Shown here piece after piece: positions 822 to 16,864 of a stretch of 64,000 bases of DNA (position 1 is its first letter; each line of letters starts with the position of its first letter). Both the position numbers and the translations under genes were made by a program. The notes beneath the pieces were generated by a model. It was not told where the DNA came from. It saw nothing but the letters and a program-made list of their open reading frames with translations, and did no database searches. The stretch is from Spongiibacter tropicus DSM 19543 (GTDB lineage: Bacteria > Pseudomonadota > Gammaproteobacteria > Pseudomonadales > Spongiibacteraceae), in NCBI RefSeq assembly GCF_000420325.1, contig NZ_ATUS01000001.1:810463-874462 (forward strand), written 5' to 3'.

Positions 822-1535
822 TCAGCGCTCGATCTGTCCCAGATTGGCATGAAGTACCGCGCCGTTGACCGCCGCGTTGTTGCTGCAGAAATAGATGACG
901 TCGGCAATCTCCTCAGGCCGCAACAGGCGTTGCTGGGTGATTCCGCTGACGATGGAGGCCATGACCTGTTCATCGCTGCCGATGTGCTCCAACAGCATCT
1001 CCGTTTCGGTAAAACCGGGGCAGACACAGGCGGTGTGAATACCTTTGCCAGCCAGATCCTGACAGCTGCTCCGCATCAGGCCAATCAGTGCATGTTTCGA
1101 CACGACATAGGCGGCAGTATTGCTCACCGCTTTTTCACCGAGGGTAGACCCCACGTAAACCACCGATGAGCCTTGCGCCATATACGGCAGGAGCCGTTTC
1201 ACCAACTCGGCTGCCGCCACCACATTCACCTCAAAGCACTGCCGGAATTGCGCAGACTCGACACCACCGACCCCACCTTTCGTCATCACCGCCGCACTGT
1301 GCACCAGAGCGACCTCGGCACGTCCACCCTCATGCGGGAAGACATCGTTCAATACCGCTGCCAATGCCTCAGACCAGTCCGCAGCTGAAAAATCTGCCGT
1401 GATATTGATAACGCCGGGCAGTTCACAGGGCCGCCGCGACAGATTAATAATTCGATAGCCCTCTCTGGCAAAACGCTGTGCGGTGGCGAAACCAATCCCT
1501 CTGCTGCCGCCGCTGACGACGAGTACTTTTGCCAT
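822..1535 (-). CDS. SDR family NAD(P)-dependent oxidoreductase
   Basis: Classical short-chain dehydrogenase of 237 residues with the cofactor motif GGSRGIG at residues 9-15, catalytic Ser130, Tyr143 and Lys147 (YVVSK). It would oxidise or reduce a hydroxyl/keto group using NAD(P). It is the last gene of the minus-strand catabolic run that starts at 14641, 73 bases after the small gene at 1609-1908. The substrate cannot be read from sequence; a hydroxysteroid or ring-cleavage intermediate is a guess from context. Confidence 0.9.
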   Translation of the reverse strand: MAKVLVVSGGSRGIGFATAQRFAREGYRIINLSRRPCELPGVINITADFSAADWSEALAAVLNDVFPHEGGRAEVALVHSAAVMTKGGVGGVESAQFRQCFEVNVVAAAELVKRLLPYMAQGSSVVYVGSTLGEKAVSNTAAYVVSKHALIGLMRSSCQDLAGKGIHTACVCPGFTETEMLLEHIGSDEQVMASIVSGITQQRLLRPEEIADVIYFCSNNAAVNGAVLHANLGQIER

Positions 1536-1608
1536 AGGAATATCATTACCTTAAAAAAAGGCCGACTATCCAGCCGGCCAAAAAGCCCACGCCGAGGTGA
1601 ACGTAGAA

Positions 1609-1908
1609 TCAGGCGCAACGAACCCCTTCCACCGAGTTCTTGCCCATTGGTCCGACTTTCACGGTGCCGTTAAAATTGTCGCCTTCAACTTCCACCGCGA
1701 ACTCCAGCGTCATGGCAATAGGCGTGGTTACCTTGCAATTCCAGCTTGCCTGATCGCCATCGGCCTTGCCGTCTTCCATGACAATGGCGCCCAGCGGGGA
1801 AAGAATCTCTCCCTCCAATGCGCCGTCATTCAGGTTGGCGGTCATTTTGCCCTTCTGCTTCCCCATCGGGGTGTTCAGAGTGATATCCCAAGATCCAGCA
1901 ATACTCAT
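1609..1908 (-). CDS. small conserved-looking protein of unknown function (99 aa)
   Basis: I do not recognise this family. The 99-residue product has no signal peptide or membrane segment and alternates polar and hydrophobic residues in a way that suggests an all-beta fold: a GSWDITLNTPMG start, then repeated G-x-I/V strands. ATG at 1908 has a good ribosome site (GGAGAAAG, about 5 bases upstream). It lies between the DUF3604 lipoprotein gene and the SDR gene on the same strand, so it is probably co-transcribed with the catabolic genes. A small lipocalin-like or binding protein is possible but unsupported. Confidence 0.75.
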   Translation of the reverse strand: MSIAGSWDITLNTPMGKQKGKMTANLNDGALEGEILSPLGAIVMEDGKADGDQASWNCKVTTPIAMTLEFAVEVEGDNFNGTVKVGPMGKNSVEGVRCA

Positions 1909-2007
1909 TTTTCTTTCTCCACACAGTGATCAATTATTATTCAAACGTAATACTTACCCAGATCGTCGTTGCGCCGTTTCCTCCCTATCGTTCTGCTTGA
2001 GCGGGTT

Positions 2008-3888
2008 TTAATTACCGACACCCTCGCCCGGCTCTTCAGCGGCCTGATACCAGATGGCCGATGTCACCGCACGCTCTTGAATACTCACCGGGTCCATGGG
2101 CTCCTCACCAAGCTTGGCCGCATCGTAGGTAGACCAACGGGGCGTGGGTATCTCAATAACGCGCGCGTAGTAGAAGGCGGTTTGTTCCGGCCTGAAGTCA
2201 GGGTCTTTCCAGACAGCCGATAGCTGCACATCGCCAATCGTGTTGGTATAGCTGGCCGTTTTGGCGTCGACGGTATTCCCCACCTCGGGCACGCGCCCGG
2301 AAGTCGGGTCTTTTACCCGGCCGTCAGAGAGCGCAACATCGTAGATACGCTCATGGGATTGCCCCTGCTCGTCGACCCAGCCCTTGATAATCTGAATGCG
2401 GTCCAGATTGCCGCTTTCAGGGTCTTTGACCGCCCAAACGGCGAAAGAGGGTGCAGCGTCTGTTGCCGGGGGCAGCTCGCCGCCCATGGGGACACCACTC
2501 GCCTCTGCCAGCGTAATCCGCTCAGCCCGGTCGATCAGATCGCTGGGGTAGTTCCAGCCCCCAAAGAACCGCACAACGATTCTTGGCCCGGAACTGGCAT
2601 AGGTTTCCTTACGACGCATGGCATCGAAGATGGATTCCCGGGTATTGGCCGTTGCCCAGACGGCAGCCAGACCTGCGGCGCCCCAGCGGCGAGAAATACG
2701 GTATTTCTCCGGCAGGAGAATCGTTTTACCCAGCCTTATGCCTGCGGTGCCATCCAACAGCGGAAGCTTGCCGTGATAATTGTCCTCTTCCACCGGGGAC
2801 GACGCATTGTGGCTATCGGTACTGCCAATCACACCAAACTTGTAGGGATTGAAGTTTTCGCTGTGGGACATTTCTATCCCCAGCCGCAAGGCATCGCGGG
2901 CATAGCCACCTTTGGGCTCAGATTTCCTGATTTTTGCCGACAGAATGGTGTCGAAGATTTCGAAGTCGGCAAAGGGATCATCAGGCGACAGCGCCGGATG
3001 CGTCTCCGAAGTGCCTTTCACCTGAAAAATCTCGCTGAGCGGCTCGTTGCGCATGCGTCGTTCGGCATAGGCGGCATCCATCGCCGAGCCATCGAAGGTT
3101 TTGTCGCCGTACATGAGGCCGCCGCTGACGTTACCGTTATGCGGAATCGCCAGGTTATCCATACCCTGCTCGCGCTGCTTCTCCAGCTCGTCCCACAGAT
3201 CTTTGGGGTTCTGCGAAATGGTCGAACTGAATGGCGCATCGGGAACCTTGCTGCCCCGGTAAAGCACGTTGCGGTGCAGATTGTTCTTGTCCGGCATCGA
3301 CGACCACTCGTAGCCGATAAACGTGGTAAATGTCCCCGGCTCGTAGTTCCTCTCGGCGCTGGCAATGATTTCCTGCCAGGCATCGGCCATCGATTCCTTT
3401 CCGCCCTCGACCTGCCCGACCTTGGGGTCAAAGCCCACCATGGTGCGTATCCAGGCAAGGGTATTGCTGATCGGGCCGTCCTCAATCAAGCGCGTTCGGA
3501 GTGAACGATCACTTAATGGCAGATCCGGCTGCATGCCTCGCACAACGCCGAGAAATTCCGAGTGATCGGTCACCGCAGCAAAGTCCAAGGGTCTGCTGAT
3601 ACGGATGCCATATTCCGCCGCGTGGGCGATTTCGCCGCCCTTGGCGAAGCGGTAGGCATCATCAGGCAGCCCCCGGACGCCCATCACATAGGCGTCAGTG
3701 GAAAAGCTGGTGTGAATATGGACGTCGCCCCACAGCAGATGCCGATCCGGATTTTCGGCAACCGCTGCCTTGGCCGGCGGCTGGACGGCCTTGTCCGGAT
3801 CGTATTTCGGATAGAGGGTCGGATCTTCGACGGGAGAACACCCCGCCAGGAGCAGTACAACACCAACCGAGCATATCGCTAATTTCAT
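2008..3888 (-). CDS. DUF3604 (PHP-like) lipoprotein, putative metal-dependent hydrolase
   Basis: The 626-residue protein begins with a lipoprotein signal (lipobox LLAGC, Cys16), so it is membrane-anchored on the periplasmic side. The body matches DUF3604: WGDVHIHTSFSTDA at about residues 53-66 (HxH metal site), AAVTDHSEF, GYEWSSMP, IPHNGN and IGSTDSHNA give a series of His/Asp ligands like those of PHP-type phosphoesterases. Its reaction is not established. ATG at 3888 follows TAAGGAG. It lies 37 bases after the TonB receptor gene, suggesting it acts on the imported substrate or a derivative in the envelope. Confidence 0.88.
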   Translation of the reverse strand: MKLAICSVGVVLLLAGCSPVEDPTLYPKYDPDKAVQPPAKAAVAENPDRHLLWGDVHIHTSFSTDAYVMGVRGLPDDAYRFAKGGEIAHAAEYGIRISRPLDFAAVTDHSEFLGVVRGMQPDLPLSDRSLRTRLIEDGPISNTLAWIRTMVGFDPKVGQVEGGKESMADAWQEIIASAERNYEPGTFTTFIGYEWSSMPDKNNLHRNVLYRGSKVPDAPFSSTISQNPKDLWDELEKQREQGMDNLAIPHNGNVSGGLMYGDKTFDGSAMDAAYAERRMRNEPLSEIFQVKGTSETHPALSPDDPFADFEIFDTILSAKIRKSEPKGGYARDALRLGIEMSHSENFNPYKFGVIGSTDSHNASSPVEEDNYHGKLPLLDGTAGIRLGKTILLPEKYRISRRWGAAGLAAVWATANTRESIFDAMRRKETYASSGPRIVVRFFGGWNYPSDLIDRAERITLAEASGVPMGGELPPATDAAPSFAVWAVKDPESGNLDRIQIIKGWVDEQGQSHERIYDVALSDGRVKDPTSGRVPEVGNTVDAKTASYTNTIGDVQLSAVWKDPDFRPEQTAFYYARVIEIPTPRWSTYDAAKLGEEPMDPVSIQERAVTSAIWYQAAEEPGEGVGN

Positions 3889-3925
3889 TGCTGCTCCTTA
3901 CACGCGTCCAAAACAGGGTCGGTCA

Positions 3926-6409
3926 TCAGTCAGCGAACTCATATTTCAGCTCCAGACCAAAATGCGCTTCCTTGCCCAGGGTGATGGAGTTGGTACCAAA
4001 CCCGGAGTACACCGCGCTGCCCGTAGCAATGTACTCTTTGTTGGTAATGTTGTTGCCGTACAAAGACAGGCTGACATTGTCCCTGTCCTTGGGCACCCAG
4101 CTCAGGCGCGCAGACCAGGTACTGAAGCCCTTGATTGTGGCTGAGTCGCGGAACTCAGGGCGACCGGCGGCGGAGTCACCACCGATAAACTGCTCGGCAC
4201 GGGTATTGCGGCTGAGCACGAAGTCGATGACGCCAAACCGTGTTTGCGTGGTGTAGTTGGCCGACAGGTTGTACACGTATTTGGGGATGAACGGGAATGG
4301 CTCGTCACTGCGATCGACCGAGGTCGGAGCTCCAGTAATGGGGTCTAAGGTCTCGTCATCGAATTCCAGGAACTCGGCATCAATGTAGTTCCCCGAGGCA
4401 TTGAGCATCCACTTGTCGCTCAGCAACCACTTGAGCTCCATTTCGACACCTTCCATCTTGGCGAGGCCCGCGTTGTTGGTATACAACTCAGGCGCCCCGA
4501 GAGAAGGGACGGTCGAGACCACGACTTGAATGTCTTTGTAGTCTGAACTGTACAGGGCCATGTTCAAGCGCATGCGACGGTCCAGAGCGTCGAGCTTGAA
4601 GCCGATTTCCTTGCTGACGACGTACTCGGGATCAAAACTGCCAATTCCCGTTGAGAGAACATTAAAGCCCCCGGATTTGAAGCCCTCGCTGACACTGGCG
4701 TACAACATCAAGTCATCAACGCCTGCCATATCGAAATGTTCTGACGCATTCCACGACAGACTGGCCATCGGCGACAAACGCTCGAAGTCCAACTCGCCGT
4801 TCCTCGTATCTCCACGAGACAACTCAATTTCAGTACCATCGAGCTGATTGAACTGCGTTTCTGTCATCACCGTAATAGGAATCGACGGCGGCAGCGGGAT
4901 ACCCAGAATCGGCGGTACCGTCTGAGAGTCAAACAGCTCGACGTGGATCTCTCGTTGTTCGTAGGAATAACGCAGACCTGCGGTGAGCTGCAGTGAAGGC
5001 AGGATATCGTAGGTCAACTGGGAAAAAGCGGCGTATGAGGTATTGTCGTAGGAACTGAGTGATGCGGTATTGATCCCGCGAACATACAGGCAGTCCTCCG
5101 GCAATAAGCCACAAAACATATTCAACGACGGCAGACCTGGCAGGCTCTCAAAACCCACCCAACCTTCTTCGTTCGTAGACTGACCGCTCAACTGGCGATC
5201 CAGTGATTCCCACGAGGCAAACAGCCCCACGGTGTAGTTCATTTTGTCGCTGAATGCGGTACCGGTGTATTGGATTTCCTGACCCAGGGTGTATCGTCCA
5301 CCCTCATCGTCGTAGACCCCCTGACGCTTGAGCTGGTCCCGAACATGGGAGGTGTTGCCGACTGAGAGCAGGTCCGTCGCGTCAAAATCGAAGTCGCTGA
5401 AATTGTCGCCCTTGATGACGTAGGACGTAATACTGGTCAGCGTACCCGGCCCGACATCCCAGGTTAAGGTATTCCCAAACAGGGCATCGCGAGACGTAAA
5501 AACACTGCCGAAATTTTCGGTTTTAACCTTCTCGGTGCCAATCAGTTTTTCAGATTCGGAACACACTTCATTGTAGGTTTCTGAGCGCCCGGGGGTTCGC
5601 GCATAGCTCATGGCGCCAGTCAGCGTAATTTGCTGACAATAGTGTGGCGAAATATTTTCGTCCTGCTTGTTGAAGTAAGCCAGAGACTTCATCGACAGCG
5701 TGTCACTGATACGCCACACGAGCTGGAGCGATGCCACCAGCCGGTCGTCATCCCCCAGGTGGCGCCCCGTATCATCATCTTCGGCATAGCCATCGGATTT
5801 CACTGAGGCCAGCGTCAATCTCGACAGCAGCCGGTCTTCAATCAATGGGACGTCCATCGACACCTGCAGGTCGCGCTGCCCGAGCGTATCCAGCCGAGAA
5901 TTAAAGCTCATGGCAAGCTGCTCAGCCGGCTCTTTGCTGGTTACCAGAATCGCCCCACCGACACTGTTTTTTCCGAACAGAGTTCCCTGCGGACCACGCA
6001 GCACCTGCACACTTTGCAGCGCTACGGTATCCAGCAACTGGCTGTCGTTTCTTGCCAGGAAAATACCATCCATATAGACCGCGACGCCGGGATCAGCTTG
6101 AACTTCATTGAGCCGTACCTGCCCGACACCGCGAATAGAGAATGCGCCCTGTTTGCGACCTTCACGCTGATCCAGACTGGGAGCCAGCTTGGAAATATCG
6201 GCGATAGTGGCAACATTATTTGCTGCCATCTCCTCTGCCGAAACAGCCGTTACTGCCACCGGTACGCCTTGCAGGCTCTCGTCGCGTTTACGCGCGGTGA
6301 CCAGAACTTCCTCAATCGCATTACCTGCCCGGGGCGCATTTTGTGCGATAGCAACTTGCCCATACATCGGCGCAGCAAGCGTCGCCGCAATTATGATACT
6401 TTTTTTCAT
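3926..6409 (-). CDS. TonB-dependent outer membrane receptor
   Basis: About 827 residues with a signal peptide (MKKSIIIAATLAA... cut near VAIAQ), a TonB-box/plug start (IEEVLVTARKRDESLQGVPV), a plug domain to about residue 150, and a long beta-barrel ending in KYEFAD. Such receptors take up large substrates across the outer membrane using TonB-ExbBD energy. ATG at 6409 is preferred over an upstream ATG at 6430 because it gives a normal signal peptide, although neither has a strong ribosome site. Placed between a sulfatase and a DUF3604 lipoprotein, it is probably the importer for the compound degraded by this cluster. Substrate not readable. Confidence 0.93.
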   Translation of the reverse strand: MKKSIIIAATLAAPMYGQVAIAQNAPRAGNAIEEVLVTARKRDESLQGVPVAVTAVSAEEMAANNVATIADISKLAPSLDQREGRKQGAFSIRGVGQVRLNEVQADPGVAVYMDGIFLARNDSQLLDTVALQSVQVLRGPQGTLFGKNSVGGAILVTSKEPAEQLAMSFNSRLDTLGQRDLQVSMDVPLIEDRLLSRLTLASVKSDGYAEDDDTGRHLGDDDRLVASLQLVWRISDTLSMKSLAYFNKQDENISPHYCQQITLTGAMSYARTPGRSETYNEVCSESEKLIGTEKVKTENFGSVFTSRDALFGNTLTWDVGPGTLTSITSYVIKGDNFSDFDFDATDLLSVGNTSHVRDQLKRQGVYDDEGGRYTLGQEIQYTGTAFSDKMNYTVGLFASWESLDRQLSGQSTNEEGWVGFESLPGLPSLNMFCGLLPEDCLYVRGINTASLSSYDNTSYAAFSQLTYDILPSLQLTAGLRYSYEQREIHVELFDSQTVPPILGIPLPPSIPITVMTETQFNQLDGTEIELSRGDTRNGELDFERLSPMASLSWNASEHFDMAGVDDLMLYASVSEGFKSGGFNVLSTGIGSFDPEYVVSKEIGFKLDALDRRMRLNMALYSSDYKDIQVVVSTVPSLGAPELYTNNAGLAKMEGVEMELKWLLSDKWMLNASGNYIDAEFLEFDDETLDPITGAPTSVDRSDEPFPFIPKYVYNLSANYTTQTRFGVIDFVLSRNTRAEQFIGGDSAAGRPEFRDSATIKGFSTWSARLSWVPKDRDNVSLSLYGNNITNKEYIATGSAVYSGFGTNSITLGKEAHFGLELKYEFAD

Positions 6410-6517
6410 AATAGTATTTTTACCTGCCATTAATTATTTTAATTATTTAAAGCTGATAAATATGAAAAACCATTCATCTACCACCAGCATTAAGCTACAG
6501 TAGCGTCAAAAGGCAGC

Positions 6518-6548
6518 ACATATAAGAATGCATTTGTAATTTATATGT
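6518..6548. promoter_or_regulatory. inverted repeat between sulfatase and TonB receptor genes
   Basis: ACATATAA (6518-6525) and its exact complement TTATATGT (6541-6548) flank a 15-base centre that contains ATGCAT. It lies in the AT-rich 181-base gap upstream of the receptor gene. It could be an operator or a transcript stem-loop; no U-tract follows on the minus strand. Confidence 0.35.
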
Positions 6549-6590
6549 ATCCAATTAAAAACCAATCGACGATATTCACTAACACCGCGC

Positions 6591-8360
6591 TTAATCGGCA
6601 GATAAAGAAACCCAAATACTCATAAAAAAATCGATAATATCGACAGCAAATTCACATACGAGTCCGCACTCACCCACGAACAGATCACCGAAGGAAATGG
6701 AAACGGGTGGACGAGGTGGAATTACACCCACCCGCTGTTTGTAGTCCATATAAAAGTTGACCATTTCTTCCAGCCTGAGCGGGTGTTCAGCAGCAAGGTT
6801 GAATGTCTCTGAGGGGTCACTATCAAGGTTATAAAGTTGCCAGTCACCGGATCCCACCGGGGGCATTAATCTTGTCGCTTTCCAGCTACCATCAATAACC
6901 GCTTGATGACCAAACAACTCCATCGCAAAACGGCGCTCGGAAGACGTCGAGATATCTTGCCAATTGCGGATCAGAGACTTCCCCTCGGGCTGAGCTTTAC
7001 CGGAAAACACCGGATTGGATTGGGTATCGACCCCGGCAAGCGCATAGAGGGTGGCGGAAATATCTTTGACGCTGGCAAGGTACTGGCTGAATTTATTACG
7101 TTCCAATCCCGGTCCTGCGACAATCAACGGCGAGCGAACGCCCCCTTCTGACACCACGCCTTTGTAAAGCCTGAACGGCGCTGCCGAGGCCCAGGCCCAC
7201 TCTCTGCCCTGAAACAGGTGCCCGCCTTCGCCGCCTTGTTTAACCGCGTCATCGGGAAAATTTTCATGAAACCACGCCCTTGTCATATTGGGATAAGACA
7301 GGGGCGTGGCCCCGTTGGGACCGTTGTCGGAAAAGAAGATAACGTAAGTATTTTCCAGCTTACCGGCGGCGTCGAGACTGGCCAGCAAACGTGCGATCTG
7401 CTGGTCCATGTATTCGATCATGGAGGCGTAAATCTCCATTGGCTTGGCGTCATTCGCACGCTCATCCAAGCTTCTTTCATTCCACGACGGCGCGGCGCCG
7501 GGAAGAAAAGCGGGGAACTGAGGTGCGCTCCACACATCGATATCGGCGGGAATCAGACCGCGGCCTGTCAGCCCTGCCACACGCTTGCGGAGGGTTGCCT
7601 CCGGCCCCGCCGCATATACGCCCTGATATTTATCGGCCCATTCCGGGGGAACCTGAAGAGGATCATGTGGCGCGGTATAGGCGAGGTAGGCAAAGAATGG
7701 CGCGCCTTCGGGCACCGCGTTGATATATTCAAGAATTTTATCGGTATAGTTTTTCGAAGAATAGAAATCGTCGGGAAGAACAACCGCTTCGCCGTTCTCG
7801 AAATAGCTTGCGTGGCCGCCACGGTACAGTGGCTTCGCATCGTTAAAGTGGCTGGCGCCGCCTTCCGCTAGAAAAAACGACTGATCAAAACCCCGCTTAT
7901 CTGGATACTGAGCCGCCTCCTTGGCAAGGTGCCACTTACCACTCATTAGAGTGGCATAGCCAACACTTTTCAGTGCTTCTGCAACCGTCACCACACCGTT
8001 GTGAAGTTGCCCGGCGTAATTGATGGATTCAAGCTGATTTGGCGCCTGAACGCCTTCCATACTGCCCACACCGGCAATATGACTATCGACACCGGTCATC
8101 AACATGGATCGCGTGGGCGAGCAGGTCGGCGACACATAGAAGCGCGTCATGGTTACCCCTCGCCGCGCCAGTCCGTCCAGTGTCGGCGTGTGGATTTCGC
8201 TGCCCATAAAGCTGAGGTCGGACCAGCCCATATCATCGGCAAGAATGACAATGAAGTTAGGCCGCTCCGTCGACGCAGCGACTCCCACCGGCAGCAGCAG
8301 TGCCAGGAATGACATCATGCATGCGAGATAGCGTTTGTAACGAACAAGACTGGCTGACAT
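6591..8360 (-). CDS. exported type I sulfatase (arylsulfatase family)
   Basis: Alkaline-phosphatase-fold sulfatase of 589 residues. The signature CSPTR with Cys80 (CxPxR, the cysteine converted to formylglycine) is followed by SMLMTG; metal-binding ADD lies at 41-43, and HLAKE and FFSDNGP are further family blocks. A hydrophobic N-terminus (residues 12-29) indicates export. ATG at 8360 is chosen because GGAGCGAG lies just upstream; the GTG at 8402 lacks this. It hydrolyses sulfate esters and would need a formylglycine-generating or radical SAM activator, not seen in this window. Neighbouring ring-cleavage genes suggest a sulfated cyclic alcohol or phenol as substrate. Confidence 0.92.
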   Translation of the reverse strand: MSASLVRYKRYLACMMSFLALLLPVGVAASTERPNFIVILADDMGWSDLSFMGSEIHTPTLDGLARRGVTMTRFYVSPTCSPTRSMLMTGVDSHIAGVGSMEGVQAPNQLESINYAGQLHNGVVTVAEALKSVGYATLMSGKWHLAKEAAQYPDKRGFDQSFFLAEGGASHFNDAKPLYRGGHASYFENGEAVVLPDDFYSSKNYTDKILEYINAVPEGAPFFAYLAYTAPHDPLQVPPEWADKYQGVYAAGPEATLRKRVAGLTGRGLIPADIDVWSAPQFPAFLPGAAPSWNERSLDERANDAKPMEIYASMIEYMDQQIARLLASLDAAGKLENTYVIFFSDNGPNGATPLSYPNMTRAWFHENFPDDAVKQGGEGGHLFQGREWAWASAAPFRLYKGVVSEGGVRSPLIVAGPGLERNKFSQYLASVKDISATLYALAGVDTQSNPVFSGKAQPEGKSLIRNWQDISTSSERRFAMELFGHQAVIDGSWKATRLMPPVGSGDWQLYNLDSDPSETFNLAAEHPLRLEEMVNFYMDYKQRVGVIPPRPPVSISFGDLFVGECGLVCEFAVDIIDFFMSIWVSLSAD

Positions 8361-8471
8361 AGCTCGCTCCGCTCCCAGAAGCCCCGGACCATATATCGAC
8401 ACGGTGAACGCTAGACCTGACTGCCACAGTGCCGATATTGATAAACCGATGTGCCGACAAAGACCCCGACG

Positions 8472-9338
8472 TCAGGAGACGACGGGATTTTCATTGCGAA
8501 TCACACTGTTTGTCCGCGCCTGAATCATCGCCTGATGATCGTCCAGATAGGGGCGAATCCAGAACTGATTACTGCTGACGCCCTCGAAGCAGGCTTCCGC
8601 GACCTCGTCGGGCTCGGTAAGTTTGAACTCGACATTTGCCCCCAAGGCTGATTTCTTCAAATCCTCCATGGTCAGGTAGTCACCGACTTCCGTTTCGTCT
8701 TTGAACTTCGACTGCCGATTGCGCTGAGAGGCAAGAATTTGTGTATTCACCATATGCGGCCCCGGAAACAGCAGGTGCACTTTGAGTTTGGGAGACTCTT
8801 TGCTGAGCTGGCTGTACAGCACCTCGGTCATCGACGTGACCGCCGCTTTGGACGAGGCATAGATCGGGGTTGTCGGGAAAGAGATACACGCGCCGTTAAA
8901 GGAGGTGGTATTGATAATATGTCCTTCCCTGTCATCGGCGAGCATGCGTGGTACGAAGGCTCGAATACCGTTGGCAACGCCCATCACATTGACGGAGTAG
9001 CCCCAGCTCCAGTCGTTGGCGGTGAGGTTCCAGATCTTGCGATCCGCCTCTTTCACCCCCACCCCGGCATTGTTGAACAACATATCCACGTGGCCGAACG
9101 CCTCGTAGGCGCTGTCTGCGAGCGCCTGAACCGACTCGGCGTCGCTGACATCAGTTACCACACCGATGGCGTTGATGCCATCTTCCTCCAGCGTTGCCAC
9201 GGCGCGGTCCAGCGCCCTCTGCTCGATGTCGGCAACAACAATATTCATTCCCTCGCGACCGAAGCGCTGGCACAGCGCAAAGCCGACGCCACTGGCCCCC
9301 CCCGTGATCACGGCTGTTTTTCCCAGGTATGCTTGCAT
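8472..9338 (-). CDS. SDR family oxidoreductase
   Basis: Classical SDR of 288 residues: cofactor motif GGASGVG at 13-19, NNAG at 89-92, and catalytic Tyr160/Lys164 (YASSK). The ATG at 9338 is preferred to the TTG at 9350; GGTGGTG lies 4 bases upstream of it. It is in the middle of the catabolic operon, between the extradiol dioxygenase and sulfatase genes, so it probably acts on a hydroxyl or keto group of the same substrate. It resembles the SDR at 17880-18716 more than the other SDRs here (same GMN after beta-2 and VNxMGVxNGIxAFVPR block). Confidence 0.9.
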   Translation of the reverse strand: MQAYLGKTAVITGGASGVGFALCQRFGREGMNIVVADIEQRALDRAVATLEEDGINAIGVVTDVSDAESVQALADSAYEAFGHVDMLFNNAGVGVKEADRKIWNLTANDWSWGYSVNVMGVANGIRAFVPRMLADDREGHIINTTSFNGACISFPTTPIYASSKAAVTSMTEVLYSQLSKESPKLKVHLLFPGPHMVNTQILASQRNRQSKFKDETEVGDYLTMEDLKKSALGANVEFKLTEPDEVAEACFEGVSSNQFWIRPYLDDHQAMIQARTNSVIRNENPVVS

Positions 9339-9397
9339 TTTCACCACCAATTATTCTGTTGTTATCGTTGTATTGTTATGAGCGTGTCGGCGATCGC

Positions 9398-10297
9398 TTA
9401 GATAGCAAACTTATGGCCCCACAGGCTGGGCGTCGTTGTGGTTGTGGGGGTGTAGTTCTCCCAATCCATCTGTAGACCCTCGCAACCGTATTCGAGGGGA
9501 AACCCTGCCGGCGTCATCATATAAAACGACAGCATACGGTCGTTAGTATGCCGCCCGAGCGTCGATGTAATCGGAATTTCCCGCTCCACAACCCGTCCCA
9601 GGCATTCACCCACCTCGTCGACGGTGTTCACTTCAAGCATCAAATGAATACAGCCCAGCGGACTGGCGCCGCCAAACAGCGCCAAAGAATGGTGCCGCGG
9701 ATTTTCAACGTGCATGAAGTTCAGGCCCAGACCGGGATCTTCCGGATCATCACCAAACTTGAAGTTCATGTAATCTGTGTCGCCAAAGCCGAGTAGCTGC
9801 TTGTAAAAGGCATGGGTCTCTTCGAGATTTGGCGCCGGTAACACGGCGTGACCGAAGCCAAAGCTGCCATTGAGCCCGGTGACGAAGCCGGATACCCCCG
9901 TCGGCGACACAAACTTGAGATAGTCCAGCTCGCCGCCGTGATACAGCTCTATGGTGTTCCCCGCCGGATCCTGAAAACGAATGAACTCGGTAACCGCCCG
10001 CACCCTCGCCTCGTCTTTGCTGCCGCGCTGGTAGCTGTGTCCTGCCTGCTCCAACGCTTGCACGGCGTTATTGAAATCATCCTTGTCATTCATTTCAAAA
10101 CCCAGCAGCTGCAGGCGGTTCTGATCGCCGGGCACTATGGCAAACCGGAAGGGACGCTCATCAATTTTGAGGTAAATATTGTCGTCGTCAGCACGCCATG
10201 GCGACGCCATCATACCGAGGACTTCAGTACCATAGCTCAGCCACTGCGACGGATCATTCGACTCTATAAATGCATAGCCCAGACTGCGAATACTCAT
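9398..10297 (-). CDS. hsaC: extradiol (type I) ring-cleavage dioxygenase, HsaC/BphC-like
   Basis: 299-residue two-domain VOC-fold dioxygenase that meta-cleaves a catechol using Fe(II). The N-terminus MSIRSLGY is typical of BphC/HsaC. Predicted iron ligands are His150, His218 (IHLMLEV) and Glu269 (PLEYG); the second-sphere block GRHTNDRMLSFY (His250, Tyr259) and His202/His203 match the BphC active site. Its ATG overlaps the stop of the upstream hydrolase gene (TAATG), so the two are translationally coupled. With HsaA- and HsaD-like neighbours, the likely substrate is a steroid-derived catechol (3,4-DHSA in the known pathway); a biaryl catechol remains possible. Confidence 0.88.
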   Translation of the reverse strand: MSIRSLGYAFIESNDPSQWLSYGTEVLGMMASPWRADDDNIYLKIDERPFRFAIVPGDQNRLQLLGFEMNDKDDFNNAVQALEQAGHSYQRGSKDEARVRAVTEFIRFQDPAGNTIELYHGGELDYLKFVSPTGVSGFVTGLNGSFGFGHAVLPAPNLEETHAFYKQLLGFGDTDYMNFKFGDDPEDPGLGLNFMHVENPRHHSLALFGGASPLGCIHLMLEVNTVDEVGECLGRVVEREIPITSTLGRHTNDRMLSFYMMTPAGFPLEYGCEGLQMDWENYTPTTTTTPSLWGHKFAI

Positions 10298-11142
10298 TAT
10301 TTCGCTACCTCGCTGTCGGAAATAAATGCCAGACACTCGGCGTTGAACAAGTCTCGGTATTCCACCATCACCCAGTGACCACATTCGGAAAGCATGATCA
10401 TTTTCAGCCGTGCACAGTTCTTTGCCAGGCCGATAATGCCAGAGTCCGGCATCATTCGGTCATCGGTTCCCCAGAACGCCAACACCGGGCATTGCAGTTC
10501 TGGCAAGCGGTCGACCAGATAGGGAATCTGCATGGTGATCATGACGTGGCCATTCATCAGCGCCATGATCTGCGAACGCTCTGCCACCAGCTCATCGGTC
10601 GCGTAAGCAGGATCATGTACCAGCGCATTGGCGAACAGGTCTTTCATCATGTCTGGCGTGACGGTATCCGCAGAGCCATAGACCTCAAACATTTTCTGCA
10701 TGCCGGGCATGGTGAAGTACTCTTCGGTCTGGCTCATGCCGCCCGGCGCCAATACAATCAGCTTACTGACCAGCTCGGGGTACTCCAGTGCCAAGCCGAT
10801 CGCGACCGCGCCGCCGAGGGAATTGCCCACAACAGCGCACTCTTTAACACCGGCCAAGTCCAGCGTCTGTTTGACACACTCGACAAAAAACGACAGCGGA
10901 TGCTGAACATCATCCGGCTTGTCGGAAAAACCAAAGCCAATCAAATCCGGTACGATGCAACGAAAGCCCGCTTCCACAAAAGCGGGGTAATTCTGCTTGA
11001 AGTTGCTATAGCCACTGGCACCCGGACCTGAGCCGTGAAGAAACACCACCACCGGCCCGTCACCTTTGTCGATATAGTGGATACGGTAGCCGTTCTGGCA
11101 ATGCGCATAATTTTCGTCTGGCAAAACGCCATTCATGGTCAT
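10297..11142 (-). CDS. hsaD: alpha/beta hydrolase of meta-cleavage products, HsaD/BphD-like
   Basis: 281-residue C-C bond hydrolase. The oxyanion/HGSGPGA block lies at 36-42, nucleophile Ser108 in GNSLGG, acid Asp in GTDD (227/228) and His256 in ECGHWV, as in MhpC/BphD/HsaD. It would hydrolyse the ring-opened dienoate made by the adjoining dioxygenase, releasing a short hydroxy-dienoate and, in the steroid pathway, DOHNAA. Stop overlaps the dioxygenase start. Assignment to HsaD rather than BphD rests on the HsaA- and KshA-like neighbours. Confidence 0.87.
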   Translation of the reverse strand: MTMNGVLPDENYAHCQNGYRIHYIDKGDGPVVVFLHGSGPGASGYSNFKQNYPAFVEAGFRCIVPDLIGFGFSDKPDDVQHPLSFFVECVKQTLDLAGVKECAVVGNSLGGAVAIGLALEYPELVSKLIVLAPGGMSQTEEYFTMPGMQKMFEVYGSADTVTPDMMKDLFANALVHDPAYATDELVAERSQIMALMNGHVMITMQIPYLVDRLPELQCPVLAFWGTDDRMMPDSGIIGLAKNCARLKMIMLSECGHWVMVEYRDLFNAECLAFISDSEVAK

Positions 11143-11203
11143 CAGAAATACCTCGATAATAGGTGTGAGTATTCAGGCAGCGGTGTTCGTCCTGGCGCCC
11201 GTG

Positions 11204-12394
11204 CTACAGGCCCAGCTCGGTAGGCTCATGCCCAAACAAGATACCGCCCAGATTCAACTCGAAAGATTCAGATACATTGGCTACGTGTGCCTGGCTGGCC
11301 AGCATATTGAGATGTTTCTTCAGCAGCGGGCTGTTGTTTCGAATACCGCCAGAACCCGCGGCCTTGAGCATTTTTGAAGAGAGTTCTATGCAGCGATCAG
11401 CCACCATTGAGCTCTCATAGCGATAGCGTGCCCGCTCGACCATATCGATTTCGATACCCGTTTCAGCACTTTTCAGCATTTCGTCAAAGCTGTTCATCAT
11501 GATCAGCTTCATCGACTCAATATTGGCTTTAACCTGCGCCGCCACCTTCTTCGAATCACCGTGATCGCGCATCATCTGCCCGCCGGCAATACGGAATTGC
11601 GCGACCTGAATATAATCCTCAAGCGCTGACTCGAGCGCGCCCAAGGTCGCTGTACAGACGGCACGCGAGAAGACCTGCATAAAGGGCAGGCGGTACAGAG
11701 CCCGTTTGTCACTGTGCTTGTCCGAGGTGGTATCGCCCAACATGAAATGGGTGCGATGCTCGGGAACAAAGACGTCGGACAACTCGATATCGTGACTTCC
11801 CGTCCCCTTCAGCCCAACGACATCCCAGTTTTTCTCGATTTTGTAGTCATCGAGCGGCACCAGGAAGGTCCGGTAGTTTTTGATATCCCAAGGCTGACCT
11901 TCGACCGGCACGACCGCACCAAGGAAGACCCACTTGCAGTGCTCGCAGCCGCTGGAAAAGCTCCAGCGACCGGTCAGCATAAAACCGCCGTCCACGGGTT
12001 TTACCAGTCCGACCGGCGCGTAGGACGACGAGATCAAGACGGAGGGATCATCCTTCCACACCTCTGCTGCCGCCTGCGGGTCAAACAGGTTGAGCTGCCA
12101 GTTGTGAACGCCGATCACACTCAGCACCCACGCCGACGACATACAGTGCTTGGCGACCTCCAGCACAACGCCGTAGTACACTTGGGGATCCAGTTCATAA
12201 CCACCGTACTTTTCTGACTGCAGGATTTTAAAGAATCCCGCATCCTGAAAATCGGCGATCGTTTCATCGGGCACTTTCGACATGGCTTCACACTGGGCCG
12301 ACCGCTCCTTCAGAGTCGGCCCCAGCGCTCGGGCTCGTTCGAGCAGTTCCTGGGCGAGGGGTGAGTTAAGTCCGCGTGTATCACGATCACTCAT
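11204..12394 (-). CDS. hsaA: flavin-dependent monooxygenase, HsaA-like (acyl-CoA dehydrogenase fold)
   Basis: 396 residues with the acyl-CoA dehydrogenase fold but the sequence blocks of HsaA-type aromatic hydroxylases: VPDETIADFQDAGFF, SVIGVHNWQL, SSSYAPVG, GRWSFSSGCEH and VVGLKGTGSHD. In known steroid degradation HsaA uses reduced flavin from the reductase HsaB to hydroxylate 3-HSA to the catechol taken by HsaC. No HsaB homologue is visible here, so a reductase must come from elsewhere. The order hydroxylase-hydrolase-dioxygenase follows the pathway logic. True acyl-CoA dehydrogenase activity is unlikely. Confidence 0.87.
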   Translation of the reverse strand: MSDRDTRGLNSPLAQELLERARALGPTLKERSAQCEAMSKVPDETIADFQDAGFFKILQSEKYGGYELDPQVYYGVVLEVAKHCMSSAWVLSVIGVHNWQLNLFDPQAAAEVWKDDPSVLISSSYAPVGLVKPVDGGFMLTGRWSFSSGCEHCKWVFLGAVVPVEGQPWDIKNYRTFLVPLDDYKIEKNWDVVGLKGTGSHDIELSDVFVPEHRTHFMLGDTTSDKHSDKRALYRLPFMQVFSRAVCTATLGALESALEDYIQVAQFRIAGGQMMRDHGDSKKVAAQVKANIESMKLIMMNSFDEMLKSAETGIEIDMVERARYRYESSMVADRCIELSSKMLKAAGSGGIRNNSPLLKKHLNMLASQAHVANVSESFELNLGGILFGHEPTELGL

Positions 12395-12463
12395 TTTTAT
12401 TCCTACCTGTTTATTATTAAATTTAGGACGAGAGACTATTTCTCGGTGAGGGACGTCCCGGCT

Positions 12464-13435
12464 TCAAGAAAACGCATAAAACTGCGAAAAGTATTTCCTG
12501 AAGCGCATAATCGGTCCGTCTCCATCACAGAGAATGGGTTTTTCAAGGTGGAATTTTTTATCCCAGATGGGGATATCGCCTTCCAGTCCCTGCTGACCAT
12601 TGGTCGACGCAATGGCAAATTCCATGACGGTATCGAGATAGCTTCCCTGCTCATAGGCGGGATAGCTGTAGGCAAAGCGTACTTCGACCTTTTCGGCAGT
12701 GACCGGCGTAACCAATACCTGAACAAGGTAGTCGGCCAAGCCGCTGAAGCGCGTCCATTTCTGGCCGGCCCCGTTTTGCACGACATTGACGCTGATGGTG
12801 ACTTCTTCCACTTCGCCTTGTTCATTCGGCACCATACGTGGCCCCGACACCAGGCTGCGGCGAACATGACCGTCGTACTCGGTCTTGCCAAGCGGAACCG
12901 CATCCATTTTGTGAACGAACTGGAAGTGCGCGAGGTCGACACCGTTTTCGGCAATTTCCTGCGGGCAGGAATTAAACTCCCAGAAATACCGGCGCGAGTG
13001 ATTCCAATTGGGCTCACGAGACTCCGGCAAATCCATCACCTCGTACTCCGGCGCCTTTTCCTCCGGGTGGTACCACGCCCATATCACGCTGTTCTTTTCG
13101 CAGACGGGATAGGTTTTCAGACAGGGCTTCCCTTCCCACTTGGGCGGAATAGTACTTGCGTAAGGAATGTCAGTAATGACACCCTCACGATTATACTGCC
13201 AGTGGTGGAAGGGACAGCGCAGCGACTCTCCCTGAACGGTCCCACCGAAACCGAGGTGCGCGCCCAAGTGGGGACACACCGGGCTGGTCAGCCCAAGCTT
13301 TCCTGACGCTGTCCGAAACAGAACCATGTCACGTTCAAAATAGTGAATATTTTTAACGTCATTGACCTGCAATTCATCACTAAACCCGATACAAAACCAC
13401 CCATAGGGCATCGGCATGGGAAAACGTTGACCCAC
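12464..13435 (-). CDS. Rieske non-heme iron oxygenase, KshA-like
   Basis: 323 residues. The Rieske [2Fe-2S] site is Cys54-x-His56 and Cys74-x2-His77 (VCPHLG...RCPFHHW), followed by a catalytic domain with the mononuclear iron motif D-x2-H-x4-H (VDLAHFQFVH), the pattern of 3-ketosteroid 9alpha-hydroxylase KshA and cholesterol 7-desaturase types. A GTG start at 13435 is chosen: GGGAGG sits 6 bases upstream, whereas the GTG at 13453 would contain that site. It needs an electron-transfer reductase (KshB) that is not present here. Its position two genes before ring-cleavage enzymes supports attack on the polycyclic nucleus; position of hydroxylation is not readable. Confidence 0.88.
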   Translation of the reverse strand: MGQRFPMPMPYGWFCIGFSDELQVNDVKNIHYFERDMVLFRTASGKLGLTSPVCPHLGAHLGFGGTVQGESLRCPFHHWQYNREGVITDIPYASTIPPKWEGKPCLKTYPVCEKNSVIWAWYHPEEKAPEYEVMDLPESREPNWNHSRRYFWEFNSCPQEIAENGVDLAHFQFVHKMDAVPLGKTEYDGHVRRSLVSGPRMVPNEQGEVEEVTISVNVVQNGAGQKWTRFSGLADYLVQVLVTPVTAEKVEVRFAYSYPAYEQGSYLDTVMEFAIASTNGQQGLEGDIPIWDKKFHLEKPILCDGDGPIMRFRKYFSQFYAFS

Positions 13436-13465
13436 GATACACCTCCCTCTCACACGTCGTTTTAA

Positions 13466-14641
13466 TCAGGCGAAATCAGATTTCATTGGCCCAATGCGCT
13501 GCGCGATGGGATTAAGTTGACTGACATCCAGGCCATAGCAGTCGACCGCATTCCCCGACAACATCAATTCCAGCTCCGTCTCAGGGACGCCTTTCAGATA
13601 TTGCTTCATCTTTTCGCGAGTTTTCGGCCAGCTACCTTCCGGATGCGGGTAATCCGTGCCCCACATGACATTGCGAATACCGATCTCATGACGAACCGCG
13701 GTAGAGCCCTCGTCAAACAGCGCAGACGCGCCGACCCAGACATTTCGTCTGAAATACTCGCTGGGTTTCATGGTGAGATGGCTTCTGAAATCGCCGAGTT
13801 TTCCCGAGGTGTGCTTGACCGACGCACGGACATCCATGAGCTCAAGCATATGAGGAATCCAGAATTCGCTGACTTCAGTCAGAGCGAACTTCAACTTGGG
13901 AAACTTTTCGAAAACACCGCCAAAAATCAGGAACCACAAGGGGCGAGCGGCCCACCAGGCGAATTCGGTAACGAATACGCCAATGGCGCCGGGCAAGGTG
14001 TAGTCGTAGTCGGGCGACGGTCCGGAATGGGTATGAACCACCAGACCGTTTTCCGCGCAGTATTCCCAAATCGGGTAGTACTTGGGGTGGTTGTAGGCGT
14101 CTTTATCGCCCATCAATGGCGGAATAAGAATGCCCTTCAGGCCATTCTCGTGAGCCCACTTCACTTCGCGAAGTGCCTCATCTACATCGTAAAGCATGAG
14201 CACGATTGCCAGACCAATGCGGCGAACAGGATCTTCCTTACAGAATTCCGCTATCCAGCGGTTGTGTGCACGGGCACCGGCCCACTGGAGTTCGGGATCG
14301 ATCCCCCAAGGCTTGAGTGCCAGACCGGCACCAAACGGGGGAGCATTCATTTCGGTAATCCCATCCGGAAACAGTACTTCAGCGGCTACACCATCCGCAT
14401 CGATCACTCGGTTGCGAACCGTGCCATCCCAGGCACCCGCCAGCCCGTCGCCCACATCTTCTCGCCACTTATCATTAAAGTCGGAGAGAAGGAGAAACTC
14501 TTCGGCTCTACGGGTCATTTCGCGCTGGATAGGCAGGGCTTCATCGAAGGCTGCATGGTACTTTGAATCCAGATAGTCCCTATAGCGCTCCATCGGCAGA
14601 CCAGCATGTCCGTCGGTAGACACAATCAGAAAACGATCCAT
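13466..14641 (-). CDS. amidohydrolase-2 family metal-dependent hydrolase
   Basis: 391-residue TIM-barrel hydrolase of the amidohydrolase_2 family, related to ACMS decarboxylase-type enzymes. Metal-binding pattern: DGH near residue 10-12, HTH at 203-205 and WGTDYPHPEG toward the C-terminus. Members hydrolyse or decarboxylate ring-cleavage products and related acids. It is the first gene of the catabolic operon, 30 bases upstream of the Rieske gene, and the only gene in the run directly downstream of the 244-base divergent promoter region. Exact reaction unknown. Confidence 0.87.
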   Translation of the reverse strand: MDRFLIVSTDGHAGLPMERYRDYLDSKYHAAFDEALPIQREMTRRAEEFLLLSDFNDKWREDVGDGLAGAWDGTVRNRVIDADGVAAEVLFPDGITEMNAPPFGAGLALKPWGIDPELQWAGARAHNRWIAEFCKEDPVRRIGLAIVLMLYDVDEALREVKWAHENGLKGILIPPLMGDKDAYNHPKYYPIWEYCAENGLVVHTHSGPSPDYDYTLPGAIGVFVTEFAWWAARPLWFLIFGGVFEKFPKLKFALTEVSEFWIPHMLELMDVRASVKHTSGKLGDFRSHLTMKPSEYFRRNVWVGASALFDEGSTAVRHEIGIRNVMWGTDYPHPEGSWPKTREKMKQYLKGVPETELELMLSGNAVDCYGLDVSQLNPIAQRIGPMKSDFA

Positions 14642-14885: not shown

Positions 14886-15839
14886 ATGATGAAGCATTTT
14901 ATATTCAGGCCTGCGACACACTTCCTGCTGATAGGGCTGGCGCTGTATTCGGCAGACATGTTTTTCCAGTGGAAAAACTCATATTTGATCGAGGCCCCAA
15001 GTGACAGGGACGTTGCAGAACTGATTAATGGTTGGCAACAGAATCCGGCAGATCAGGTCTCGCCCGCCAAGCTAAGCGCCAGCGCTTACACGGTTTTGTT
15101 GAATGAGGCATTATTGCTGAGCGAAGCCATACGCGAAGAGATACACCTCCACGACCCTCAAATCATAAGCAGGCTGTTGCTGGATGCGGACTATCTCGGC
15201 TTGCCGGGGGATCGTGATGAGCAGCTTGAACACGCCTATACCCTGCAACTCCATCTGGGCGATGAAGCCATTCGGCGGATGATGGTTCTGCGAATGGAGC
15301 AACGCGCGCGAGCCGCTTTGTCTTCGGAGCTCCAACCAACAGAAGAGCAACTTCAACAGCGATACCGCAACGACAGCAGCCGCTGGGATGGTCAGGCGCA
15401 CTATTCTATTGTGCAGCGGTTTTTCAGCACAGACAAAGGCAATGCGTCACAGCGCGCGTCACGAGCATTGGACGCGCTCAATCGCGGGCAGCCAGCGGAT
15501 GCCGGCGATATTTTTTTCCAAGGAAAATACTTCGGGCAAGTCAGCGCCGCAGAGCTGGACAGCCTGATGGGCAGAGGTTTCAGTCGTGCCCTTGATTTGC
15601 TCTACACCCACGATGACATAACGCATAGCGACGCTCATAGCTCAACATGGCTCGGCCCGATCCAGTCGGCATACGGCTTCCACCTCATCAAGTTTAACGA
15701 TTACCGCCCGGCGAAGAGGATTGCGTTTACGGATGCCAGGCCGGAGATTGCCGAGGAATGGCGACGCGAACAGGAGCAAACGGCTTACGAGCACTACCTC
15801 CATCAACTCAAGCAAAAATACAGCGTGGTGACACGATGA
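14886..15839 (+). CDS. parvulin-type peptidylprolyl isomerase, membrane-anchored
   Basis: 317 residues with one N-terminal membrane segment (about 11-30) and a periplasmic part resembling PpiC/SurA-type foldases; the segment from about residue 160 (WDGQAHYSIVQRFF) to 300 (SAYGFHLIKFNDYRPA) fits a rotamase domain. Two ATGs (14886, 14889) are tandem; start is 14886 or 14889. It is divergent from the catabolic operon and overlaps the HupE/UreJ-like gene by 4 bases (ATGA), so it probably helps fold an envelope protein linked to that pair. Confidence 0.8.
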   Translation: MMKHFIFRPATHFLLIGLALYSADMFFQWKNSYLIEAPSDRDVAELINGWQQNPADQVSPAKLSASAYTVLLNEALLLSEAIREEIHLHDPQIISRLLLDADYLGLPGDRDEQLEHAYTLQLHLGDEAIRRMMVLRMEQRARAALSSELQPTEEQLQQRYRNDSSRWDGQAHYSIVQRFFSTDKGNASQRASRALDALNRGQPADAGDIFFQGKYFGQVSAAELDSLMGRGFSRALDLLYTHDDITHSDAHSSTWLGPIQSAYGFHLIKFNDYRPAKRIAFTDARPEIAEEWRREQEQTAYEHYLHQLKQKYSVVTR

Positions 15840-16864
15840 GTCGCCAAGGCATGGGGCGTAGCATCCTGTTTGCCATAATCGTCAGTGCGTTTGCCAACAG
15901 CGCTTTGGCACACAAGCTGGCACCAGCGTTACTTGAGGTAGAGGAAAGCGAGAGCCACCGCTACACAGTGACATGGACCGCAGCGATAGGCGAGCTGGCT
16001 ACCGCTTTGCCGCAACTGCCGGATGCCTGTGAGCAAAGTGGTTGGAGCAATGCCAGCCTTACAAAGACAGGTACCGCTATTGTGCGACGCCAACGCATGC
16101 ATTGCGTCAATGGGCTGGTGGGAGAACACATTACTATTCCAGAGAGGCCATCAGGGCAATCGGCCGTTCTGACGCGCTTTGTTCCACTTGATGGCGCCCC
16201 GAAGGAGCGGCTACTCACCAGAGACGAACAGCGCTACACGCCGCCGCTCACTGCCGCCCCTGGTAGTGTCATCGGGCAGTATCTGCAACTGGGCGTGAAA
16301 CATATTCTGATCGGCCTGGATCATCTGCTGTTTGTCGCGGCCCTGCTGTTACTTGCTGACAAACCCCGCACGCTGGTTCAGACGGTGACAGCATTTACTG
16401 CGGGACACAGCCTGACCTTGGCAATGGTTGTGTTAAATATCATTCCCCAATGGCCAGACCTCATTGAATTTGCCATCGCAATGACGATTCTCATTCTGGC
16501 CCTGGAGCTGGCTGGGTCTATGTTTAACAGTGACCAAGGGGGAAAACTCTCGATACTCAAAAGGCGTCAGTGGCCGATAGCGGCGGTGTTCGGCATGGTA
16601 CACGGACTGGGCTTTGCCAGCGTATTGACGGAGCTAGGCCTGCCGAAAGAGGGACTGGTGACCGCGCTCGCCGCCTTTAATATTGGCATTGAAATTGGCC
16701 AGCTTGTCTTTGTGGCGAGTCTGGCGGCGGTATTGATTAGCTTGAAACGACTGTATGCTCCGGCCCATCGCCCTGCCGTCGCGACGCTGATTTATATTAT
16801 GGGCGGCGTCTCAGTATATTGGTGCGTAGAACGCGGACTGTCGCTGCTGCACGCCGTGATCTAA
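15836..16864 (+). CDS. HupE/UreJ-family membrane protein
   Basis: 342 residues: signal peptide ending ANSALA, a periplasmic domain to about residue 135, then about six membrane segments with the family block GVKHILIGLDHLLFVAALLLL and a later HGLGFASVL. HupE/UreJ proteins are linked to nickel/cobalt transport, but this two-part form (HupE_UreJ_2 type) is widespread in marine bacteria with no settled function. The ATG at 15836 overlaps the PPIase stop (ATGA); an upstream in-frame ATG at 15758 would overlap that gene by 82 bases and lack a signal peptide. Confidence 0.85.
   Translation: MSRQGMGRSILFAIIVSAFANSALAHKLAPALLEVEESESHRYTVTWTAAIGELATALPQLPDACEQSGWSNASLTKTGTAIVRRQRMHCVNGLVGEHITIPERPSGQSAVLTRFVPLDGAPKERLLTRDEQRYTPPLTAAPGSVIGQYLQLGVKHILIGLDHLLFVAALLLLADKPRTLVQTVTAFTAGHSLTLAMVVLNIIPQWPDLIEFAIAMTILILALELAGSMFNSDQGGKLSILKRRQWPIAAVFGMVHGLGFASVLTELGLPKEGLVTALAAFNIGIEIGQLVFVASLAAVLISLKRLYAPAHRPAVATLIYIMGGVSVYWCVERGLSLLHAVI

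Follow-up and report, generated by a model that had tools for sequence, protein, structure and literature searches.

Described systems close to the locus reported here include the 9,10-seco pathway of steroid degradation, a group of PF04909 enzymes and the bile-salt genes of Chol11. PF04909 members with dinuclear sites have been defined as oxygenases (AROs) (PMC10811679). In AibH2 the metal ligands are D25, H27, H211, E265, D337 and H340, and an extra acidic residue (D342 in AibH2, E313 in PtmU3) is restricted to the dinuclear members (PMC7782822, PMC10401708). The Chol11 bile-salt genes include Nov2c230 (SclA), Nov2c228 (monooxygenase) and Nov2c227 (Bsa) (PMC8399759, PMC12175502). Here we describe a gene cluster of Spongiibacter tropicus DSM 19543 that combines HsaA-, HsaC- and HsaD-like ring-cleavage enzymes with a sulfatase, a TonB-dependent receptor, a DUF3604 lipoprotein, a Rieske oxygenase and a further, probable oxygenase. 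It occupies positions 822-14641 of a stretch of 64,000 nucleotides (contig NZ_ATUS01000001.1, 810,463 to 874,462), hereafter the window.

The cluster is real, conserved and functionally coherent, and we see in it a variant of steroid-type catabolism; our literature search found no paper describing it as a unit. The author of a preceding annotation made from the letters alone (the sequence-only reading) knew of no described operon with exactly this set. With moderate confidence, we propose that the cluster serves the breakdown of a sulfated compound of steroid-like (polycyclic isoprenoid) type, which it would take up, free of its sulfate, trim in its skeleton and open at ring A.

Ring-cleavage genes and spread of the cluster

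All eleven minus-strand open reading frames (ORFs) counted in the sequence-only reading were confirmed in the ORF listing, with strong Pfam and NCBIfam E-values for the family assignments and intact catalytic residues (Table 1). In phylogenetic trees built with references of steroid, biphenyl and naphthalene types (terpene-pathway references were not included), HsaA, HsaC and HsaD group with steroid-type homologues, apart from BphC, BphD and NahC. The split of HsaC from the biphenyl and naphthalene enzymes has a support of 91/92. HsaD joins proteobacterial steroid-type homologues with 100/98, a placement that leans on these proteobacterial references, some with database annotation only; the HsaD of the actinobacterium Tsukamurella is grouped with BphD through long branches. 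The trees thus reject a biphenyl or naphthalene origin of HsaC and HsaD. The steroid-type assignment of all three enzymes is supported, and neither oxygenase nor hydrolase takes the biphenyl placement that had been named as a possible objection.

The window and Halieaceae copies form common clades (HsaA 100/100; HsaC 99/97; HsaD 87/95, including the copy of genome G189 in our numbering), distinct from the core KshA-HsaACDEFG set of the window genome at 630-639 kb. In that core set, KshA-HsaC-HsaA lie at ~630-633 kb and HsaF/G/E with HsaD at 635.7-639.3 kb. A third, more divergent KshA-HsaC-HsaA set is found near 608-611 kb (L030 12767-15963; HsaC 43%), a KstD-like gene at 759.7 kb, and HsaB-like (37%) and KshB-like (36%) reductases elsewhere in the genome. 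In the vicinity of the core KshA-HsaC-HsaA genes there are genes for coenzyme F420 synthesis (FbiC-, CofC- and CofE-like, by reading; L031 4954-9844).

Among 18 genomes of the genus Zhongshania, with which we count the window genome, a close HsaD copy (79-100%) is present in the window genome (G000), G004, G005 and G008, and most others have only the 48-56% core copy; the cluster is accessory within the genus. The G005 stretch is the same as that of Zhongshania sp. BJYM1. The search of related genomes proposed in the sequence-only reading showed that the gene set recurs in other Zhongshania and in Halieaceae. Most of the families were found together at five Zhongshania loci (L013, L033, L046 of Z. 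aquimaris CAU 1632, L084, L085) and at five loci of Halieaceae or related metagenome-assembled genomes (MAGs; L034, L036, L038, L039, L040), and this joint recurrence is far beyond chance. At loci L035, L037, L041 and L042, the oxidation module is present, but the set of ring-cleavage genes nearby is incomplete. In G189 (L026), the module occurs with HsaA, HsaD and a homologue of the short-chain dehydrogenase/reductase (SDR) SDR2, adjoining HsaE/F/G homologues; its HsaA is spread over two ORFs (L026 9047-10281), possibly through a frameshift or sequencing error.

In distant families (L080, L082, L086, L089, L090), the PF04909 protein, the Rieske protein, SDR2 and the ADC-fold protein stay together. 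Because these four genes persist together without HsaA, HsaC or HsaD at that place, the unit is modular, consisting of a four-gene oxidation module, a ring-cleavage trio and an uptake/desulfation arm. The widely kept core is the module, that is, the dinuclear oxygenase, the Rieske oxygenase, the SDR and the ADC-fold protein; the trio and the arm of sulfatase, TonB receptor and DUF3604 protein are joined to it in Zhongshania and some Halieaceae.

The Rieske and the probable dinuclear oxygenase of the four-gene module

Two features had escaped the sequence-only reading: the dinuclear-oxygenase ligands of the PF04909 'amidohydrolase' and its ADC-fold partner. The top PDB sequence matches of the PF04909 protein are PtmU3 (3.4e-25) and DitZ (2.4e-19); we found no literature on DitZ, for which the name suggests diterpenoid degradation. 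Its ligands D10, H12, H205, E256, D330 and H333 are invariant in 31/31 homologues, down to 32% identity, and so is the diagnostic acid E335 in the motif DYPHPEG. Because all six metal ligands and this acid are invariant, the 'amidohydrolase' is probably a hydroxylase of the dinuclear oxygenase type. The ligand set disfavours a plain hydrolase or decarboxylase role. The closest PDB folds to its weak AlphaFold model (pLDDT 54, pTM 0.64) are DitZ, PtmU3, AibH1H2 and SfbO, with decarboxylases close behind.

The oxygenase gene is nearly restricted to genomes with an HsaA homologue. In a drawn sample of 294 genomes, 28 of the 29 with the oxygenase gene (E <= 1e-60) also carry an HsaA homologue (E <= 1e-40), against 77/294 overall; counted by genus, the figures are 12/13 against 36/118 (P = 1.5e-6). 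On the Rhodococcus gordoniae plasmid pDND3A (L095 7818-11095), a distant PF04909 homologue (37%) with all dinuclear ligands is flanked by an HsaA homologue on one side and an extradiol dioxygenase on the other.

The adjoining Rieske protein is a full oxygenase of 329 aa, not a small ferredoxin, and its CxH/CxxH motifs and residues D173, H176, H181 and D293 are invariant in 31/31 sequences. It had been called KshA-like, which would make it a 9alpha-hydroxylase. This assignment has to be given up: the KshA clade, comprising the annotated Tsukamurella KshA and two copies of the genome itself, excludes the window protein with 98-100% support, which rules out a KshA identity, and the true KshA homologues of the genome lie elsewhere. 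The window protein clusters instead with other module partners, mostly neighbours of the dinuclear oxygenase, and with Rieske proteins of Sphingobium and Novosphingobium, whose exact place is not firm under the midpoint rooting used, as some long branches meet. In the Sphingobium and Novosphingobium clusters, a CoA ligase gene is followed by those for an amidohydrolase, the Rieske protein and an amidase. This order matches that of the Chol11 bile-salt genes Nov2c230, Nov2c228 and Nov2c227 and suggests that the genes may be orthologues of these.

In the ADC-fold protein (PF06314), E89 and K103, which we take to be the catalytic Schiff-base lysine, are invariant in 21 homologues. The module gives a probable dinuclear oxygenase of the recently recognised PF04909 type a broad and conserved catabolic setting, in which its neighbour is a Rieske oxygenase rather than a ferredoxin. 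Where genes of clusters of this kind are annotated as 'amidohydrolase' or 'KshA-like', the label is probably wrong.

Substrate, proposed route and alternative readings

For the substrate, the compartments, the order of steps and the chemistry of the module, we infer the following route. The TonB receptor would bring the compound into the periplasm. There, the signal-bearing sulfatase, perhaps together with the DUF3604 lipoprotein, would remove the sulfate and free a hydroxyl, as its clear family membership suggests. The cytoplasmic module (PtmU3/AibH2-type oxygenase, partner Rieske protein, SDR2 and Schiff-base ADC-fold protein) would oxidise and shorten the alicyclic skeleton or a substituent. 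HsaA would then hydroxylate the phenolic ring, HsaC would open it by meta cleavage and HsaD would split the product, steps predicted from the families and their intact residues. The core HsaE/F/G of the genome could finish the C5/C6 fragment, and electron partners would be encoded elsewhere in the genome.

Sulfated steroid-like molecules of marine origin are the most likely substrates; diatoms (sterol sulfates) and echinoderms (saponins) are plausible natural sources, as are sulfated bile alcohols. A module that oxidises and decarboxylates before HsaA acts would make sense if the substrates were 4-methylsterols or triterpenoids. A bolder version, which we consider a long shot, is that the dinuclear and Rieske oxygenases work together as a new two-oxygenase system and, aided by the SDR and an ADC-fold decarboxylase, remove an alkyl branch as CO2, so admitting sulfated marine 4-methylsterols or triterpenoids to the seco pathway. 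The C4 methyl is proposed as an example of such a branch because it would otherwise block HsaA. If the proposed route is true, abundant marine bacteria couple the uptake of steroid-like molecules to their desulfation and to the opening of their rings.

The sulfatase has the P. aeruginosa arylsulfatase (1HDH) as its top PDB match (382 bits, nearly the whole domain), and C94, P96 and R98 of its CSPTR motif are invariant in 12 sequences. A sulfatase lies within ~15 kb of the oxygenase gene in at least 11 of 19 genomes, against 1.2 expected from the number per genome; the distances were read by hand, and some absences may be missed sulfatases. Relative to the window's enzyme, the neighbouring sulfatases are 30-37% identical in Halieaceae and 28% in Novosphingobium. 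In G004 and one Novosphingobium MAG, the only sulfatase of the genome among the matches listed adjoins the oxygenase. The Halieaceae clusters L036 and L038, which also hold a sulfatase, have two sulfotransferase-like genes (by reading, SGRTW motif) upstream of HsaA-HsaD-HsaC (L036 75-1990, L038 1137-3052).

The DUF3604 protein, ~60% identical to the copies in Halieaceae clusters, has H57, H59, D108, H109, H250, D358 and H360 (motifs HxH, DH, H, DxH) invariant in 14 sequences. It gave no PDB sequence match and a useless structure model (pLDDT 36), and our literature search found no paper linking DUF3604 with steroids; periplasmic ester hydrolysis is our guess at its role.

Several points weigh against the proposed reading. 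The NCBIfam scores fall below the equivalog cut-offs (HsaA 337/450, HsaC 286/450, HsaD 152/400 bits); the core HsaA and HsaC copies of the genome miss them too, and therefore the cut-offs do not reach this lineage. The naive P of 1e-9 for the sulfatase association treats relatives as independent, which they are not, and per lineage it is ~0.02 and hence weak; among the matches listed, no sulfatase neighbours the module in L035, L041, L042, L043 and L044. The assignment of the PF04909 protein as an oxygenase is based on its sequence; its model is poor, and mononuclear decarboxylases have the same fold. Finally, the closest sulfatase structure is an arylsulfatase, compatible with simple phenol sulfates.

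This last point also favours an alternative that we regard as unlikely, in which the arylsulfatase frees a non-steroid phenol (an alkylphenol, a flavonoid, or a seagrass or algal phenolic) that HsaA, HsaC and HsaD open directly. By themselves, these three enzymes could process a bicyclic or alkyl phenol. However, their trees put the set within the steroid-type radiation, and two alicyclic-type oxygenases, the ADC protein and the tight co-occurrence with HsaA genomes would be left unexplained.

Slightly less plausible again is an ordinary redundant 9,10-seco set, with the Rieske protein as a KshA isoenzyme, the amidohydrolase as a hydrolase, and the sulfatase, TonB and DUF3604 genes as generic uptake genes. 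In many steroid degraders, KshA and HsaA occur in multiple copies (PMC8540908, PMC8399759), and the window genome has two more KshA-HsaC-HsaA sets. Nevertheless, the well-supported position of the Rieske protein outside the KshA clade (98-100%), the complete dinuclear-oxygenase ligands of the amidohydrolase and the families that keep the module without adjoining Hsa genes all argue against mere redundancy.

An estrogen sulfate pathway (estrone sulfate desulfated, C4-hydroxylated by HsaA and cleaved by HsaC) would suit the arylsulfatase and a phenolic A ring, and an HsaA-HsaD-EFG cluster does lie on a plasmid of Novosphingobium sp. ES2-1, presumably an estradiol degrader, but we consider it very improbable, as known estrogen clusters use other 4-hydroxylases and are not known to include an HsaD-type hydrolase, and the sea provides little natural estrogen.

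The preferred reading, a sulfated steroid-like substrate, retains its steroid-side trees, the recurrent sulfatase neighbour and the other steroid-type genes of the genome, and loses the KshA step that the sequence-only reading had included.

Gene layout and comparison with described systems

The cluster ORFs are separated by gaps of only -1 to 160 bp. SDR1 is cut off by a strong terminator-like hairpin, GGCCGGCTGGATAGTCGGCC followed by T7 (minus strand, 1579-1560), and is not conserved with the cluster, which disfavours its membership. The 69-nt stretch containing the hairpin has a minimum energy of -21.9 kcal/mol (z -2.05). For HsaC, the listed ORF runs up to 10384; starting instead at 10297 (MSIRSLGY) agrees with the family and gives a one-base overlap with HsaD. 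The frequency of promoter-like matches did not exceed that in shuffled sequences.

The conserved neighbourhood extends rightward to 20678 via LysR, SDR3, the ADC gene and SDR4, which are kept beside the cluster in G004 and G008 and partly in Halieaceae. In the window, a plus-strand pair at 14886-16864 (PpiC-type rotamase, HupE/UreJ) separates the amidohydrolase from LysR; in G004 (L013), LysR directly adjoins the amidohydrolase. On the other side, a LuxR ORF (73-819) is the end of a 343-aa gene that starts before the window (L032 18251-19282), and next to the core KshA-HsaC-HsaA set of the genome lies a LuxR paralogue (30% over 223 aa).

Table 1. Features of the cluster and its conserved neighbourhood (window coordinates).
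Feature	Position	Strand	Evidence or remark
SDR1	822-1535	-	past terminator-like hairpin; no copy in orthologous clusters
Intrinsic-terminator-like hairpin, probable operon end	1560-1579	-	hairpin + T7
99-aa protein without Pfam match, last gene ahead of terminator	1609-1908	-	66-77% copies in Zhongshania relatives
DUF3604 lipoprotein, LAGC lipobox, PHP-like metal motifs	2008-3888	-	Pfam 725 bits
TonB-dependent receptor	3926-6430	-	Pfam plug + barrel; 67-75% identical copies at same place in G004 and G008
Sulfatase, S1 type, CSPTR formylglycine motif, N-terminal signal-like sequence	6591-8402	-	Pfam 195 bits
SDR2, fixed member of oxidation module	8472-9350	-	adjoins or lies near oxygenase and Rieske genes in most relatives
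HsaC-like extradiol dioxygenase	9398-10297	-	NCBIfam; H150, H202, E269 invariant; steroid side of tree
HsaD-like meta-cleavage-product hydrolase	10297-11142	-	NCBIfam; S108, acidic 228, H256 conserved; tree
HsaA-like flavin-dependent phenol hydroxylase, oxygenase component	11204-12394	-	NCBIfam HsaA 337 bits; tree
Rieske oxygenase, full-length, KshA_C fold, outside KshA clade	12464-13453	-	Pfam Rieske + KshA_C; tree
PF04909 'amidohydrolase', probable dinuclear (Fe2 or Mn/Fe) oxygenase, ARO type	13466-14641	-	ligands; PDB sequence matches
LysR regulator	16898-17845	-	55-83% copies beside cluster in Zhongshania and Halieaceae
SDR3	17880-18716	-	50-74% copies
ADC-fold protein (PF06314), fourth oxidation-module gene	19140-19913	+	Pfam; adjoins oxygenase in Halieaceae
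SDR4	19995-20678	+	48-71% copies in relatives

Compared with the 9,10-seco pathway (actinobacterial HsaACD; Comamonas TesA2, TesB and TesD), the window cluster has the same HsaA, HsaC and HsaD families, whose active sites are intact, and an annotated Tsukamurella plasmid shows the same gene order, HsaA-HsaD-HsaC. It differs in its sub-cut-off scores and its own clade. KstD, a true KshA and HsaB/E/F/G are missing inside the cluster, and the trio is joined here to the sulfatase, the TonB receptor, the DUF3604 protein and the four-gene module. The sulfatase shares the formylglycine motif with the P. aeruginosa arylsulfatase and has, in addition, what reads as an N-terminal signal-like sequence.

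The Chol11-type bile-salt side-chain cluster (SclA, amidohydrolase, Rieske monooxygenase, Bsa amidase, Scd4AB) is reminiscent of the window module in its Rieske protein, which is 39% identical over the full length and lies on the same side of the tree. However, the neighbouring amidohydrolase there is short and has no detectable similarity to the window's PF04909 protein, and the acyl-CoA enzymes of that cluster are missing from ours.

The PF04909 protein resembles the AROs PtmU3, AibH2, SfbO and DitZ in the six ligands and the diagnostic acid, and its top sequence and fold matches are among them. The operon has no AibH1-like subunit, and whereas AibH2-like systems are described with a small Rieske ferredoxin, the Rieske protein adjoining here is a full-length oxygenase whose iron site is intact.

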